From contig LBMP01000010.1 in NCBI GenBank assembly GCA_001184205.1, forward strand, positions 1-59,234: a stretch of 59,234 bases of DNA, in the 5' to 3' direction. Origin of the DNA: Desulfocarbo indianensis (GTDB taxonomy: Bacteria; Desulfobacterota; Desulfarculia; Desulfarculales; Desulfarculaceae). Positions 7,941-52,739 of this stretch are shown one piece after another. The notes under the pieces were generated by a model. It saw nothing but the letters and a program-made list of their open reading frames with translations. It was not told the origin of the DNA and did not search any database. The position numbers were made by a program, and so were the translations under genes. Each line of letters begins with the position of its first letter. The stretch's first letter is position 1.

Positions 7941-8023
7941 GGCAACCTCCCGAATTGAGTTGTCCTGATCTTGCCTTGGGGCGCGGGGGCGGCTGGCGCC
8001 GAGATCGCCCCAGGCGCGCCGTC

Positions 8024-8052
8024 TTGAACGGCCGCTGCTCACAGGATACAAT
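8024..8052 (+). promoter_or_regulatory. Sigma-70-type promoter
   Basis: TTGAAC at 8024-8029 and TACAAT at 8047-8052 with a 17-bp spacer, 30 bp before the isochorismatase-like gene. Confidence 0.6.
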
Positions 8053-8081
8053 GTTAAACCCGGACAGGGAGGGAAAATACC

Positions 8082-8597
8082 ATGCCCCAGGCTCTTTTGA
8101 TCGTGGACATGCTCAATGACTTCGTGCGCCCGCAGGGAGCCCTGGCGGTGCCCGGAGCCCAGGAGATAATCCCCCATATCCAGAGGGAGCTGGCGGCCGC
8201 CCGCCAGGCGGGGCATGCCGTGATCTATGTTTGCGACGCCCATGATCCGGATGACCTGGAGTTTGAGCGCTATCCGGCCCACGCCGTGGCCGGCAGCCAG
8301 GGCGCCGAGATAATCCCCGAGCTGAGCCCGGCCCCCGGCGACCAGGTGATCCCTAAAAAGCGCCTCAGCGCCTTCTATGACACCCGGCTTGACAACGTCA
8401 TCTCCCGCCTCCGGCCGGAAAAGGCCACCGTGGTGGGAGTGGTGACCCATATCTGCGTGATGGAGGCGGTTGCCGGCCTTTGCGACCGCGACATCCCGGC
8501 CAGGGTTCCCCGCGATTGCGTGGCCGACTTCGACCAGGAGCAGGCGGCCATGGCCCTGAAACGCATGGCTTCGGTTTTCGGCGCGGAGATCGTCTGA
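8082..8597 (+). CDS. Cysteine hydrolase, isochorismatase/nicotinamidase family
   Basis: A 171-residue single-domain hydrolase. The catalytic triad is visible: Asp in LLIVDMLNDF (residue 9), Lys in VIPKKRLSAFYDT (about residue 92) and Cys in GVVTHICVMEA (about residue 125). DAHDPDDLEF followed by AHAV resembles the metal-site region of nicotinamidases, so nicotinamide or another small amide is a possible substrate. It acts in the cytoplasm, with no signal peptide. It stands alone behind its own promoter and is divergent from the Memo-family gene. The exact substrate cannot be assigned from sequence alone. Confidence 0.85.
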   Translation: MPQALLIVDMLNDFVRPQGALAVPGAQEIIPHIQRELAAARQAGHAVIYVCDAHDPDDLEFERYPAHAVAGSQGAEIIPELSPAPGDQVIPKKRLSAFYDTRLDNVISRLRPEKATVVGVVTHICVMEAVAGLCDRDIPARVPRDCVADFDQEQAAMALKRMASVFGAEIV

Positions 8598-8701
8598 CCG
8601 CCTCGCCGGTTGCGGCTGTAGAGTGAGGTCATGGCCGGGCGCCGGCGGGGGACTGGTTAACGCCATACCGGGTCTTTTATTCTTTTGTCGCGGGTCCAAT
8701 A

Positions 8702-8721
8702 CCCCGCAGCTTGCTGCGGGG
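8702..8721. repeat. Perfect short hairpin, REP-like
   Basis: CCCCGCAG-CTTG-CTGCGGGG, an 8-bp perfect stem with a 4-base loop, followed by AGGTTCATTAAA rather than a T-run. It may serve as the 3' end of the upstream transcript or be a dispersed palindromic repeat; the whole genome is needed to decide. Confidence 0.4.
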
Positions 8722-8818
8722 AGGTTCATTAAAAGAAGCGCGTAGGGCCGGACAACCCAGGGGGGGCTGCCTCGCGCGGCTGGCCGGCCAATGGGCGGGA
8801 ATGCCAGCCTCGGTTGCT

Positions 8819-8846
8819 TTGACGGTGGCGCTGGGGATGGTATGAT
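8819..8846 (+). promoter_or_regulatory. Candidate promoter for grx-ftr
   Basis: TTGACG at 8819-8824 and TATGAT at 8841-8846 with a 16-bp spacer, about 75 bp before the glutaredoxin start. Confidence 0.5.
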
Positions 8847-8921
8847 TTTTATTGATAACTCATATCAGGTCGGCCAAACCCAGGGGATGGCCGGCTATCC
8901 GATCAAGCAAAGGAGACAGCC

Positions 8922-9176
8922 ATGGCCCAACCCCGCGTGATGCTCTACGCTCTGACCACCTGCAGCCATTGCCGCAACGCCAAGAAGCTCCTGGATGAAA
9001 ACGACATCGCCTACGACATCCTGGAGGTGGACCTCACCCAGGGGGACGAGCGCACGGCGGCCATTGACGCGGTCAAGAAATACAATCCCTCCTGCACCTT
9101 TCCCACTCTTTTGATCGGCGAGAAGGTCATCGTGGGCTACCGGGAGAACGAGATCAAGGAGGCGCTGGGCATATGA
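8922..9176 (+). CDS. Glutaredoxin-family protein
   Basis: An 84-residue thioredoxin-fold protein with the active site TTCSHCRNAK (CxxC with Cys at residues 14 and 17), a cis-Pro in TFPTLLIG and the C-terminal helix RENEIKEALG. The ATG has AGGAGA upstream. It overlaps the next gene (ferredoxin-thioredoxin reductase beta) by 4 bp, so the two products are probably partners: the reductase would pass electrons from ferredoxin to this disulfide. It is NrdH/Grx-like in size; the specific target is unknown. Confidence 0.9.
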   Translation: MAQPRVMLYALTTCSHCRNAKKLLDENDIAYDILEVDLTQGDERTAAIDAVKKYNPSCTFPTLLIGEKVIVGYRENEIKEALGI

Positions 9177-9505
9177 GCCCCCAGGAACTCTATGAGATGC
9201 TGAAGAAAGTCCAGGAGCCCAAGGGATATTTCTTCAACACGGATCATGAGATGGTCATGGGGCTCATGGAGGGCCTTTTGCGCAACAAGGAGCGCTACGG
9301 CTACATGTGCTGTCCCTGCCGCCTGGCCGCCGAGGACCGCGAAAAGGACCAGGACATTATTTGTCCCTGCGCATACCGCGAGGCCGACGTCAAGCAATAC
9401 GGGTCCTGCTACTGCCAGCTCTACGTCTCCCGAGACTGGAACGACGGCAAGCTGCCCCATGAATATGTGCCCGAGCGCCGGCCCCCGGAAAAGATGTTCG
9501 GCTGA
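9173..9505 (+). CDS. Ferredoxin-thioredoxin reductase catalytic (beta) subunit
   Basis: A 110-residue FTR beta-type protein that reduces a protein disulfide with ferredoxin electrons through a [4Fe-4S] cluster next to a redox-active Cys pair. All Cys motifs are present in order: MCCPCRL (CPC near residue 47), IICPCAYRE (CPC near 66) and SCYCQLY (CYC near 78). It begins in ATGA with the glutaredoxin stop. There is no alpha (variable) subunit gene nearby, as is typical for anaerobes with standalone FTR. It works in the cytoplasm. Confidence 0.92.
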   Translation: MSPQELYEMLKKVQEPKGYFFNTDHEMVMGLMEGLLRNKERYGYMCCPCRLAAEDREKDQDIICPCAYREADVKQYGSCYCQLYVSRDWNDGKLPHEYVPERRPPEKMFG

Positions 9506-9552
9506 TCGGCCGGCCCCCGGCGAGCCTCTCGCCAGCGCTGAAGGGCGCCCCC

Positions 9553-9592
9553 CAAAAAAGAGGCCGCCCGCCCCCGAAAAGGGCGCGGGCGG
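9553..9592. terminator. Bidirectional terminator between convergent genes
   Basis: CCGCCCGC (9564-9571) pairs with GCGGGCGG (9585-9592). On the minus strand the stem is followed by CCTCTTTTTT; on the plus strand by TTTC. It separates the FTR gene from the convergent zinc-ribbon gene. Confidence 0.65.
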
Positions 9593-9638
9593 TTTCAATT
9601 ATGCGGCCGGAAAGGCTCGGCTCCCGGCCGCCGCGGCG

Positions 9639-9848
9639 TCAGGTTTCAATGGTGCAGCGGCTGAAATCTATCTTGGCCTTGCAGCCCGAGCAAAAATGTT
9701 CCTTGTCGAACTCGTCGGAGAAGATTTCCTTTTCCTTACCGCAGTTGGGACACTTGCATATGAAGGCCTTCAGTTCCTTGTTGGCCTCGAATCCTGGGCA
9801 ATGACGAGGTGTGCTCACTTTCCACTCCTTTGCCTGGGGCTTGGTCAA
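9639..9848 (-). CDS. Small zinc-ribbon protein
   Basis: A 69-residue protein with two CxxC knuckles, CPNCGKEKE near residue 34 and CSGCKAKID near residue 53, preceded by STPRHCPGFE. It is a compact zinc-ribbon, cytoplasmic by its lack of a signal. The even spacing of Cys pairs and the conserved-looking core suggest a real gene rather than a shadow frame, and the frame ends just beyond a convergent terminator. Similar small proteins occur widely in sulfate-reducing relatives without a known function. It may bind nucleic acid or a protein partner; no function is assigned. Confidence 0.75.
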   Translation of the reverse strand: MTKPQAKEWKVSTPRHCPGFEANKELKAFICKCPNCGKEKEIFSDEFDKEHFCSGCKAKIDFSRCTIET

Positions 9849-10028
9849 GCCGCTCCGGGCCCGAATGACCCAGCGCGACTGTCTATTTATTAAATGATGC
9901 AGGCCCGCTTTGCGGCAGTCAATAGCTTAGTGAGGACCGGGGTTGCATCTTGGACGTCTTTGCGGTACGTAGAAGCCCAAAATGGCAAGCTGCTCATCTT
10001 TGTTCGCTCCCCGCTTTTGGAGGATTAC

Positions 10029-11384
10029 ATGGCTGTGGTCGCGCCTTTCAAGGCCGTGCGTTTCAACCAGGAAAAAGTCAATGATATGCGCAAAGTGGTG
10101 GCGCCGCCCTACGACGTGATTTCCGCCGAAGAGCAGGAACGCCTGTATCAGTCCGACGCCCACAATATCATCCGCATTGAGTTGAACAAGTCGCGGGAAA
10201 CCGATACCGCTGAAGACAATCGCTATACCAGGGCCGCCGATCACCTGGAGCGCTGGCTGCAGGAGGGGGTGCTCGCCTGCGACCCCCGGCCGGCCTTCTA
10301 CTATAGCGAAACCGAATACAAGGATATCGAGGGCAAGACCCACACCCGGCGCGGCTTCTTCACCCTGCTCAAGGTGGTGGATTTTTCCGAGCGCGTGGTG
10401 CTGCCCCACGAAAAGACCTTCACCGGGCACAAGGAAGACCGCCTCAAGCTGACCAAGGCCACCGGGGCCAACATCTCGCCCATCTTCGCGCTCTACCCGG
10501 ACGACGCCAACGAGGTGCAGCAGGCCCTGCAGGGGGCCATGAATCCGGTGCCCCTCAATGATTTCGTGGACCCCATGGGCCTGCGCCAGCGCCTCTACGC
10601 CATGGACGACAAGGCCGCCCGGCAGAGGATCGTCGAGCTCATGGCCGACAAGGTCATCTTCATCGCCGACGGCCACCACCGCTACGAGACGGCCATCAAC
10701 TACCGCAACTACATGCGGGAAAAGCACCCCGAGGCCGGGCCCGACGCCCCCTGGGAATACGTGATGACCTATTTGTGCTCCATGAGCGATCCGGGCCTGA
10801 CCATCTTCCCCTGCCACCGGGTGCTGCCCAAGCTGGATCTGTTCGAGGCCCGCGATTTCCTGGTGCACGCCAAAAAGCATTTCGACTACCAGGAGATTCC
10901 CATCGAGGGCGACATGGACCACGCCAAGAAGCGCTTCCATGACGCCCTGCATGCCGCCGGACAAAAGGGGCGCAGCTTCGGCCTGGCCTCCACCGAGGCC
11001 AACGCCTTTTACGTCTTCACCCTGCGCTCCGGCCCGGGCGATGAATCCTGGCGGCAGTTGGAAGGCCCCTTGCGCGATCTGGACGTGGAGGTGCTCACCA
11101 ACGTGGTGCTGGAGCATATCCTGGGCCTGGACAACAACTGGCGCGACCAGACCCACACCATCAGTTACGTGAGCGACGGCAATCAGGTGATAGACGACGT
11201 GCGCACCGGCAAGGCCAAGGTGGGCTTTCTCTTGAACCCCACCCGTATCGAGCAGGTGCAGTCCGTGGCCGAGGCCGGGCTCATCATGCCCCGTAAAACC
11301 ACCTATTTTTATCCCAAGGTGCTCACCGGCCTGACCATCAACCTGGTGGACCCCGGCCGGGTGATGCCGCTCCTGCGCTGCTGA
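10029..11384 (+). CDS. DUF1015 family protein
   Basis: A 451-residue protein of the DUF1015 family. Seen: VVAPPYDVIS near residue 22, the family's signature FIADGHHRYETAINYR near residue 212 and CHRVLPKLD near 262. The ADGHHRYETA segment contains the conserved His/Arg cluster. Some family members are related in fold to the ParB/Srx-type serine kinase SerK, but the function of this branch is not established. The ATG at 10029 has GGAGG six bases upstream; an in-frame extension to 9894 lacks a ribosome-binding site. The next gene begins 4 bp after its stop, so the two are probably co-transcribed. Confidence 0.85.
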   Translation: MAVVAPFKAVRFNQEKVNDMRKVVAPPYDVISAEEQERLYQSDAHNIIRIELNKSRETDTAEDNRYTRAADHLERWLQEGVLACDPRPAFYYSETEYKDIEGKTHTRRGFFTLLKVVDFSERVVLPHEKTFTGHKEDRLKLTKATGANISPIFALYPDDANEVQQALQGAMNPVPLNDFVDPMGLRQRLYAMDDKAARQRIVELMADKVIFIADGHHRYETAINYRNYMREKHPEAGPDAPWEYVMTYLCSMSDPGLTIFPCHRVLPKLDLFEARDFLVHAKKHFDYQEIPIEGDMDHAKKRFHDALHAAGQKGRSFGLASTEANAFYVFTLRSGPGDESWRQLEGPLRDLDVEVLTNVVLEHILGLDNNWRDQTHTISYVSDGNQVIDDVRTGKAKVGFLLNPTRIEQVQSVAEAGLIMPRKTTYFYPKVLTGLTINLVDPGRVMPLLRC

Positions 11385-11388
11385 GGGA

Positions 11389-12150
11389 TTGGCGCGCGTG
11401 GCCGGCGGCGAAGGCGGCAAGGGCGATGGGGGCCGGGAAGACCTTTGCACGGACGACGCCCTGGGCCGCCTTGGTTTTCGCCAGCCCAGAGAGGGCTACC
11501 GCTTCTCCATAGACAGCGTTTTGCTGGCCGGTTTCGCGCCGGAGGTAAAGGGGAGGGTGGCCGACCTGGGCGCGGGCTGCGGGGTGCTGGCGGTGCTCTT
11601 GCACGCCCGCGGCCTGCCGGGGCCCTTTGTCTGCGTGGAGATAGACCCCCTGGCCGCGCGCTGCTCGCAACACAATCTGGCCCGGGCCGGGGCCCCCGGC
11701 GAAACCCTGTGCCAGGATTTGGCCGCGGACCATCCCGCCCTGTCCAAGGGCTCCTTCAGCCTGGCGGTGAGCAACCCCCCCTTCACCAAGGCCGGCCACG
11801 GCCGGGTTTCGCCCCGGCCGGCCAGGGCCAGGGCCCGCCAGGAACTGGCCCTGGAGGCGGAGACCCTTTGGCAACGCGCCGCCGGGCTTCTGGAAAAGGG
11901 CGGCAGCCTGGCGCTCTGCTGGCCGCCGGCCCGCCTGGTGGAGGCCTTGAGCGGCCTGGACGCCGCCGGGCTAAGGCCCAAGCGCCTGCGCCTGGTGCAC
12001 GGCCGGGAAGGCAAACCGGCTCGCTTGGCCCTCATCCAGGCGGTCAGGCAAGGCCGGCATCAGCTATCGGTGGAGCCCCCCCTCATGGTCTATGACCGCG
12101 GCCAGGCCTATTCCGCCGAGGTGCGCACCCTTTACGACTCCCTGCGATAA
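11389..12150 (+). CDS. TrmN6-like adenine-N6 methyltransferase
   Basis: A Rossmann-fold SAM methyltransferase of about 250 residues. QPREGYRFSIDSVLLA near residue 28 is the family signature, ADLGAGCGVLAVLL near 62 binds SAM, and VSNPPFTKAG near 126 is the NPPF/Y motif of N6-adenine methyltransferases. The closest role is tRNA1(Val) A37 methylation, but rRNA or other substrates cannot be excluded. The frame begins with TTG at 11389; a GTG at 11398 is an alternative start, and neither has a strong ribosome-binding site. It is coupled to the DUF1015 gene upstream. Confidence 0.75.
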   Translation: MARVAGGEGGKGDGGREDLCTDDALGRLGFRQPREGYRFSIDSVLLAGFAPEVKGRVADLGAGCGVLAVLLHARGLPGPFVCVEIDPLAARCSQHNLARAGAPGETLCQDLAADHPALSKGSFSLAVSNPPFTKAGHGRVSPRPARARARQELALEAETLWQRAAGLLEKGGSLALCWPPARLVEALSGLDAAGLRPKRLRLVHGREGKPARLALIQAVRQGRHQLSVEPPLMVYDRGQAYSAEVRTLYDSLR

Positions 12151-51899: not shown

Positions 51900-52739
51900 A
51901 TGAAAGCAAGCATGAAAATAGCGTTGCTGGTCGGTGTCCTGGCTGTTTTGTTCTGCGCCCAGGCGGCCATGGCCCACATTCTGTGGCTCAACCCGGATAA
52001 GATGGTGGTCAAACCGGGCGAGGAAATAAGCGTCGGCATCGGCTTCGGCCACGGCTATCCGGCCGACAGGAAGGATGAAAACGTCAGAGAAGGAATGCTG
52101 GGCGAGGTTTTCGCCGAGGGGCCGGACGGCAAGGCCGTGCCCCTGCAGAAGGTCTCGGACTCGGAATACAAGTTCAAGGCGGACAAGGCGGGCGCTTATC
52201 TGCTCAGCGCGGTGATGAAGCCCGGCTTTTTCAGCCGCACTCCCCAGGGCATGAAGCGGGGCTCCAAAAAGGAGGTTGCCGAGGCGGTGACCTGCATGCA
52301 TTTTCAAATGATCGCCAACGCGCCCATGGTGGCGGGCGCTTCGGCGGCCAAGCTTGGCGCGCCCGCCAAGCAGGCTCTGCAGATAGCGCCCCAGGCGGAG
52401 GTGGCCGGCCTTAAAAAGGGCGACACCCTGCCGATCCAGGTGATCTTCGACGGTAAGCCCCTGGCCGCGGTGGACGTGAAGGCCACTTACGCCGGCTTCA
52501 AGGCTCCGCCCCAGGCCAAGGATAAGGCCAAGGGCGACAAGTCGCCCGAGGCCATGCGCAAGAAGATGGCCGCCAGGTTCCCGGTTTTCGTCAAGACCGA
52601 CGCCCAGGGACGGGCCGATATCAAGCTGAGTCAAGCCGGCTGGTGGCTGGTCATCCTTTCGCACAAAACTCCCTTTGAGGACCCCCAGACCTGCGATCAG
52701 CACGTGTACCAGACCACCTTCACCTTCCAGGTGAAATAG
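51900..52739 (+). CDS. Periplasmic DUF4198 protein, predicted N-terminal His
   Basis: A 279-residue exported protein. The signal peptide MKIALLVGVLAVLFCAQAAMA is followed directly by HILWLNPDKMVVKPGEEISVGIGFGHGYP, so the mature protein would start with His, as in metal-binding DUF4198 and CopC/His-brace proteins. Further on are a beta-sandwich region (AEGPDGKAVPLQKVSDSEYKF), a helical insert of 30-40 residues, and a second beta-domain ending GWWLVILSHKTPFEDPQTCDQHVYQTTFTFQVK. Members of the family accompany nickel, cobalt and other metal uptake loci. It is co-transcribed with the exported methylase protein. The start at 51900 has GGGAGG upstream. Confidence 0.85.
   Translation: MKASMKIALLVGVLAVLFCAQAAMAHILWLNPDKMVVKPGEEISVGIGFGHGYPADRKDENVREGMLGEVFAEGPDGKAVPLQKVSDSEYKFKADKAGAYLLSAVMKPGFFSRTPQGMKRGSKKEVAEAVTCMHFQMIANAPMVAGASAAKLGAPAKQALQIAPQAEVAGLKKGDTLPIQVIFDGKPLAAVDVKATYAGFKAPPQAKDKAKGDKSPEAMRKKMAARFPVFVKTDAQGRADIKLSQAGWWLVILSHKTPFEDPQTCDQHVYQTTFTFQVK

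Follow-up and report, generated by a model that had tools for sequence, protein, structure and literature searches.

Described DUF4198 proteins and related systems

An N-terminal histidine metal site has been in print for the DUF4198 family since 2025 (PMC12537917). According to the passages of this paper on IsDUF4198, the NikK protein of Ideonella sakaiensis (PDB 9GCB), Ni2+ is bound with a Kd of 18 nM via the N-terminal histidine and His18 in a facial arrangement, Ni2+ is preferred over Cu2+, and only a weak peroxidase activity is observed; the N-terminal histidine was present in 79% of the sequences compared in that study. A further solved member of the family is Zcp (PDB 9MHI-9MHO), for which structures with Zn, Cu and Co exist and in which the GH motif of the proteins described below is missing. 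The gonococcal gene zcp, equated here with Zcp by the name shared with one text passage, is described there as zinc- and Zur-regulated and was used as a control.

As far as the passages on other DUF4198 genes go, they are under Fur control in Caulobacter and respond to iron in Alteromonas and Avibacterium. The TonB/DUF2271/PepSY clusters of Caulobacter and Alteromonas resemble the cassette described below in that a secreted DUF4198 protein is encoded near TonB receptors or iron genes. In contrast to this cassette, these clusters are iron-regulated, and no tetrapyrrole-methylase partner is described in the passages concerned.

In the following, "the window" denotes the whole stretch of 59,234 nucleotides of Desulfocarbo indianensis that was analysed. 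Its features and those of related loci (L numbers) are listed in Table 1.

Table 1. Features of the window and of related loci; positions without a locus number refer to the window.
Feature	Location	Strand	Basis and remarks
TonB-dependent receptor relic, C-terminal 58 residues	49929..50102	+	tblastn; two in-frame stops upstream
Secreted tandem tetrapyrrole-methylase-fold protein, 554 aa	50206..51870	+	PF00590, two stretches, 273.6 bits
DUF4198 protein gene	51900..52739	+	PF10670, 136.1 bits (Pfam gathering cut-off 34); AF2 pLDDT 90.9; Z 21.0 to 9GCB
Signal peptide MKASMKIALLVGVLAVLFCAQAAMA, predicted cut AMA/H	51900..51974	+	sequence; homologues
His26 of precursor (mature His1), predicted metal ligand	51975..51977	+	72/72 homologues; equals 9GCB His1
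His51 of precursor (mature His26, GFGHGYP), predicted metal ligand	52050..52052	+	71/72; 9GCB His18 by GH.P
Cys132 of precursor, possible disulfide partner of Cys265	52293..52295	+	Cys in 58/73; putative disulfide
His255 of precursor (mature His230), possible third ligand	52662..52664	+	His in 44/73; putative role
Cys265 of precursor, conserved CD motif	52692..52694	+	Cys in 61/73
DUF4198-TP-methylase fusion	L080 2416-3975	-	same contig as L107
PUIUDLWRWA receptors, two in-frame TGA codons	L088, L099, L101		within cassette
TonB receptor, RLPCP + in-frame TGA + DYYWWARC	L131 7029-9152 (own genome, contig C1)		PCPU form

DUF4198 protein and its predicted mature start

The ATG of the DUF4198 gene is preceded by a GGAGG-type ribosome-binding site and opens a precursor of 279 aa, with a predicted mature chain of 254 aa. 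With its score well above the gathering cut-off, the protein belongs to PF10670, the only Pfam family matched at E values up to 1. The signal peptide ends with AQAAMA, so that the -3/-1 rule permits two cut sites, AQA/AMAH and AMA/H. The original prediction assumed the latter, with HILWLNPD as the mature start, and proposed to check it by the conservation of the first histidine and by a prediction of the cut. The former check turned out clearly positive: a profile alignment matched 73 distinct DUF4198 sequences, and in 72 of the 72 that include the N-terminus the histidine directly follows the signal peptide, preceded by alanine in 67 sequences, by glycine in 4 and by serine in 1. Of the 27 sequences used to build the profile, 26 came from a set selected by an [AGSC]H motif. 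In the latter check, a simple cut-site heuristic chose AQA/AMAH, whereas the homologues point to AMA/H. If the cut was made at AQA/AMAH, which is acceptable as a -3/-1 site, the histidine would be residue 4 and the window member would lack an N-terminal chelate. Compared to the uniform position of the histidine after A, G or S in the homologues and to the chain of 9GCB, which starts with histidine at the equivalent position, this is very unlikely. Since the structural alignment to 9GCB, too, pairs residue 26 of the model with residue 1 of the chain at its start, AMA/H is preferred, and open reading frame, signal peptide and mature start are retained as first described.

An earlier set of 35 homologues, obtained from a search of 297 genomes together with the genome's own copies, showed the signal peptide ending right before the histidine in all 35, a count that is biased toward this start since the script sought the [AGSC]H motif. 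The baseline was taken from 38 other signal-peptide-like genes of the window and the fetched loci. Only one of these, NikL, showed a histidine at +1, and NikL is itself part of a Ni/Co uptake system. The occurrence of histidine at +1 in the DUF4198 homologues is therefore well beyond chance. By sequence and by its homologues, the window protein thus comprises the IsDUF4198-type start, a signal peptide directly followed by histidine after a predicted cut.

Predicted metal-site residues and comparison with solved structures

The second histidine, in GFGHGYP, had been assigned to about residue 38 of the mature chain. This was wrong, as position 51 of the precursor corresponds to mature residue 26. 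Among the homologues, the histidine of this GHG element is lost only in the protein of locus L055. The 30 loci from a species-wide scan provide no test of this residue, because the selection pattern contained GH; when the 29 rows selected in this way are left out, all of the remaining 43 sequences have the first histidine and 42 of them the second. The GH.P motif was aligned to 9GCB via the related protein of locus L037, and in the alignment of the latter with 9GCB, residues 1 and 18 of the solved chain are the histidines of the AH..W and GH.P motifs. A second predicted ligand equivalent to His18 is therefore present.

The comparison of the folds gave a consistent picture. Residues 26-279 of the AlphaFold2 model align to residues 1-213 of the 9GCB chain with an rmsd of 3.0 over 209 aligned residues at 20% identity, and at the Z score given in Table 1 both proteins have the same fold. 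Among the solved structures, Zcp is nearest to the window protein both by profile (198.8 bits) and by fold (Z about 25). Nevertheless, the metal site of Zcp probably differs from that of the window protein, since Zcp comprises no GH motif and H29, H31 and H142 are the residues replaced in its deposited triple mutant. With IsDUF4198, the window protein has in common the family, the fold, the N-terminal histidine and the GH.P histidine. The differences are the position of the second histidine (mature residue 26 compared to 18 in 9GCB), the conserved cysteines, a possible third histidine and an adjoining gene for a secreted methylase-fold protein. Cys132 and His255 were invariant in an alignment of 11 DUF4198 sequences.

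Since His1 and His26 of the window protein correspond to the Ni2+-holding His1 and His18 of IsDUF4198, the part of the original prediction that regarded both histidines as a metal site is supported, yet it was already published for the family. The other part, a likeness to copper His-brace proteins, is less fitting. An N-terminal and a second histidine on a beta-rich fold would suit a CopC- or LPMO-like protein acting as copper carrier or oxygenase. However, no CopC domain was matched in Pfam at E values up to 1, the best 50 fold matches are headed by DUF4198 proteins (Zcp, 9GCB) and contain no LPMO or CopC entry, and the DUF4198 site is described in the passages of PMC12537917 as facial, with Ni preferred over Cu and weak peroxidase activity only. 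The copper His-brace was therefore rejected as first choice and is considered most improbable. Altogether, the DUF4198 protein is exported, and very probably it starts with histidine and uses this residue to hold a metal ion.

Adjoining methylase-fold gene and receptor relic

The methylase-fold gene ends 29 bases before the start of the DUF4198 gene, and its product carries a Sec-type signal peptide as judged by eye. The tetrapyrrole (TP) methylases, to which it is related, normally work inside the cell. In the own genome, 11 proteins of the TP-methylase family with 13 domain matches were found, of which, again by eye, 5 comprise a signal peptide and 6 are apparently cytosolic. The best AF2 model of the window protein reached a pLDDT of 82.5, with the five models ranging down to 63.8, and it matches the folds of CysG, CbiF and CobM. 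With a score above the cut-off, both domains belong to PF00590 (TP_methylase), and they keep the GPGD and GDP motifs, which vary among the 43 TP-methylase domains compared. Each half of the protein also keeps an invariant pair of cysteines among 10 sequences, and the second cysteine of each pair lies in a CEE(Y/F)H-like motif; these residues possibly form disulfides or a ligand site.

The receptor relic upstream shares 57% identity (E 5e-16) with its intact counterpart in a paralogous locus of the same genome, situated on contig C111. A tblastn search of the window with three intact receptors at E values up to 1 did not find the rest of the receptor. No APC permease follows the DUF4198 gene of the window, and the next notable open reading frame on the plus strand resembles an alpha/beta hydrolase by eye. 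Both the reduction of the receptor to 58 residues and the hydrolase-like frame in place of the permease would fit a decaying remnant without a current role. In contrast to this, the DUF4198 and methylase-fold genes are intact and their conserved residues are kept, which makes a remnant an unlikely explanation, albeit one with some chance.

Cassette and clade in other genomes

The usual cassette comprises a TonB receptor, a secreted tetrapyrrole-methylase-fold protein, DUF4198 and often an amino-acid permease. In the window, the methylase-fold gene and DUF4198 are retained together with the receptor relic. The cassette was described from 30 loci obtained by a scan of one genome per species (84,980 species) with a pattern including GH. 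A TP methylase was located within 1 kb of DUF4198 in 28 of these loci, while a TonB receptor within 4 kb was found in 27, and 20 had an APC permease no more than 3 kb away, several contigs ending early. Among the hosts are Desulfosarcina widdelii, Desulfonema magnum, Candidatus Electrothrix gigas and aarhusensis, a Fermentibacteraceae bacterium and two Spirochaetes.

The window protein lies inside a clade of 39 members, supported at 100/99, in the tree calculated from 72 DUF4198 sequences. Except for L010 and L098, the members of this clade originate from loci with a TP-methylase gene (37 of 39). Of the 41 rows with a TP label, 4 fall outside, the labels being assigned per locus so that a second DUF4198 copy in one locus takes the same label. 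The link between DUF4198 and TP methylase is not universal. Among 297 genomes searched, 38 have a DUF4198 match at 1e-10, and such a match is also present in 9 of the 21 genomes with a strong TP match. Short stretches with TonB and TP genes and without DUF4198 were observed as well (L043-L046, L059). On the other side, DUF4198 and the TP-methylase fold are fused in one genome (L080) to one protein of 520 residues with one signal peptide.

Several peculiarities were noted in individual loci. At L065 370-2265 (+), a TP-methylase-like match lies in a frame of 632 residues whose remainder is unassigned and which adjoins a TonB receptor match. The methylase-fold proteins of L092, L113 and L114 show a lipobox-like cysteine by eye, suggesting a lipoprotein form. 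In Candidatus Electrothrix aarhusensis (L112 5748-6594, +), the DUF4198 gene is split over two overlapping frames, which reflects either a frameshift or an error of the assembly. Four Acido-Lenti-1 RNA matches are scattered through the locus of Desulfonema magnum (L090).

A control of the cassette by cobalamin riboswitches was also considered. In the window and 18 loci of the cassette or related types, the scan yielded two cobalamin riboswitches, at L068 4729-4920 (-) and L090 15796-15979 (+). Neither of them immediately precedes a cassette gene, so that there is no support for B12-type control.

Receptors and probable selenocysteine

One site of the receptor frame is interrupted by in-frame TGA in 12 of the 30 loci. 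At this site, 7 receptors read PCPU, 3 read PUIUD with two TGA codons and 2 show a C..U form. The NCBIfam TonB receptor families NF049944-NF049947 are named by the motif types FCYXU, CU, PUIUD and PCPU; their U was taken as selenocysteine, as which NF049945 is listed in the passage on this family. The PCPU and PUIUD motifs of these types also occur in cassette receptors. The cassette receptor of L078 scored 734 bits against NF049945, which is below the cut-off of 825. A TonB selenoprotein predicted by deep-Sep is mentioned in a passage of PMC12013277, and the FCYXU receptor type is listed in a passage of the review PMC13188914.

A GC-rich hairpin was predicted after the TGA in 8 of 8 PCPU cases, which were folded without a shuffled control. 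A tRNA-Sec match above the cut-off was present in 9 of 9 genomes checked (best 69.7 to 80.5 bits compared to 47), though the cut-off was also passed by 5 of 14 control genomes. From its sequence, the L131 receptor, which adjoins a gene for a secreted TP-methylase-fold protein in the own genome, is probably a selenoprotein. The receptor site of the window's subclade reads like HAPDYHGDYNPQG and differs from the types NF049944-NF049947 in containing no selenocysteine. An exchange of Sec/Cys for His/Asp at this site would fit metal binding.

Which metal

The metal held by the window DUF4198 protein is perhaps nickel or cobalt. These metals are favoured on account of CbiM-type ECF genes near DUF4198 genes of the clade. 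Ni/Co ECF genes were found at 7 of 51 loci examined, with the own NikK locus (L074) counted apart. CbiM, CbiQ and CbiO were matched at L079, L087, L100, L113, L114 and L115, and CbiM alone at L075. The CbiM/CbiQ matches at L113 and L114 are weak, with CbiQ of L114 passing the NCBIfam cut-off, and L069 showed a weak NikL-like match only. Among 9 genomes with fetched loci, 3 (G015, G046, G280), each with 1 or 2 CbiM matches, showed CbiM 1.6 to 6.1 kb from a clade DUF4198 gene. Nearness to ECF genes need not mean joint work, since the ECF operon at L115 has a NikK-type DUF4198 of its own. L087 represents a clade member with ECF genes and without a TP gene.

In the own genome, the one CbiM/NikM match is not near the window but on contig C1, beside the NikK-type DUF4198 L001. 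The window DUF4198 is not encoded with NikM/L/Q/O and is in this respect no NikK. The operon on contig C1 (L074, about 7990-11590, +) comprises L001, CbiM/NikM, NikL, CbiQ and CbiO, and its NikL has a predicted N-terminal histidine.

The DUF4198 family as such does not fix the metal, as other members respond to iron or zinc. In life, the window protein could hold iron, zinc or copper, and the cassette would then represent a siderophore-, heme- or zincophore-type system. The passages on Fur control in Caulobacter and on the iron response in Alteromonas and Avibacterium point in this direction, as does Zcp. The sequence of Zcp is nearer to the window protein than that of 9GCB, its structures contain Zn, Cu and Co, and its gene is zinc- and Zur-regulated if the passage on zcp applies to it. 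However, the two ligands match those of the Ni-preferring IsDUF4198, Zcp is without the GH motif, and Ni/Co ECF genes are repeatedly found in the vicinity of the cassette. Another metal is thus possible but rather doubtful.

Proposed role and implications

Based on these observations, we regard it as likely that the window DUF4198 is a periplasmic metal-capture protein in the TonB-driven uptake of a metal, most likely Ni2+ or Co2+. The computed support comprises sequence, family, fold, ligand conservation, cassette and receptor relic. From it we infer the cleavage, the metal identity, the hand-over and the role of the methylase-fold partner as follows. Signal peptidase I would expose His1, whose amino group and imidazole, together with His26, would bind a single divalent metal ion, in all likelihood Ni2+ or Co2+, in an open site that could accept or pass on the metal in a chaperone-like manner. 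A metal complex would enter via a TonB-dependent outer-membrane receptor, its organic part would probably be bound by the methylase-fold partner, and DUF4198 would take the metal for inner-membrane import. Since the receptor of the window is a relic, the pair of DUF4198 and methylase-fold protein would need another receptor, for example the intact C111 paralogue.

A more far-reaching scheme, which we put forward as speculation with a small chance of being correct, is that sulfate reducers and some Spirochaetes and Fermentibacterota import Ni or Co as a tetrapyrrole-like metallophore complex via a TonB receptor. The grip of the receptor on the metal would be based on Sec (PCPU, PUIUD) or on His/Asp, the exported methylase fold would hold the ligand in the periplasm, and the N-terminal-histidine DUF4198 would strip off the metal there.

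While the metal site of the family was known, the new element is a distinct DUF4198 clade, strongly supported in the tree, and its association with a secreted tetrapyrrole-methylase-fold protein and with TonB receptors, of which some belong to types listed as selenoproteins. A search of the open-access literature found no paper joining DUF4198 with tetrapyrrole methylase; in the one paper containing both "DUF4198" and "tetrapyrrole", the second word occurs, in the passages found, only in a list of GO terms.

From clade and cassette, a testable function in the uptake of metals follows for these TonB receptors and for the secreted methylase-fold proteins. Cable bacteria (Candidatus Electrothrix) depend on nickel. 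In a passage of PMC11247825, the receptors of cable bacteria are reported to be unrelated to known Ni receptors. For these organisms, which carry the cassette, it represents a candidate outer-membrane metal route. If the more far-reaching scheme is true, it would constitute a new route of metal acquisition with an extracytoplasmic branch of tetrapyrrole methylases, none having been described in the open-access literature searched.
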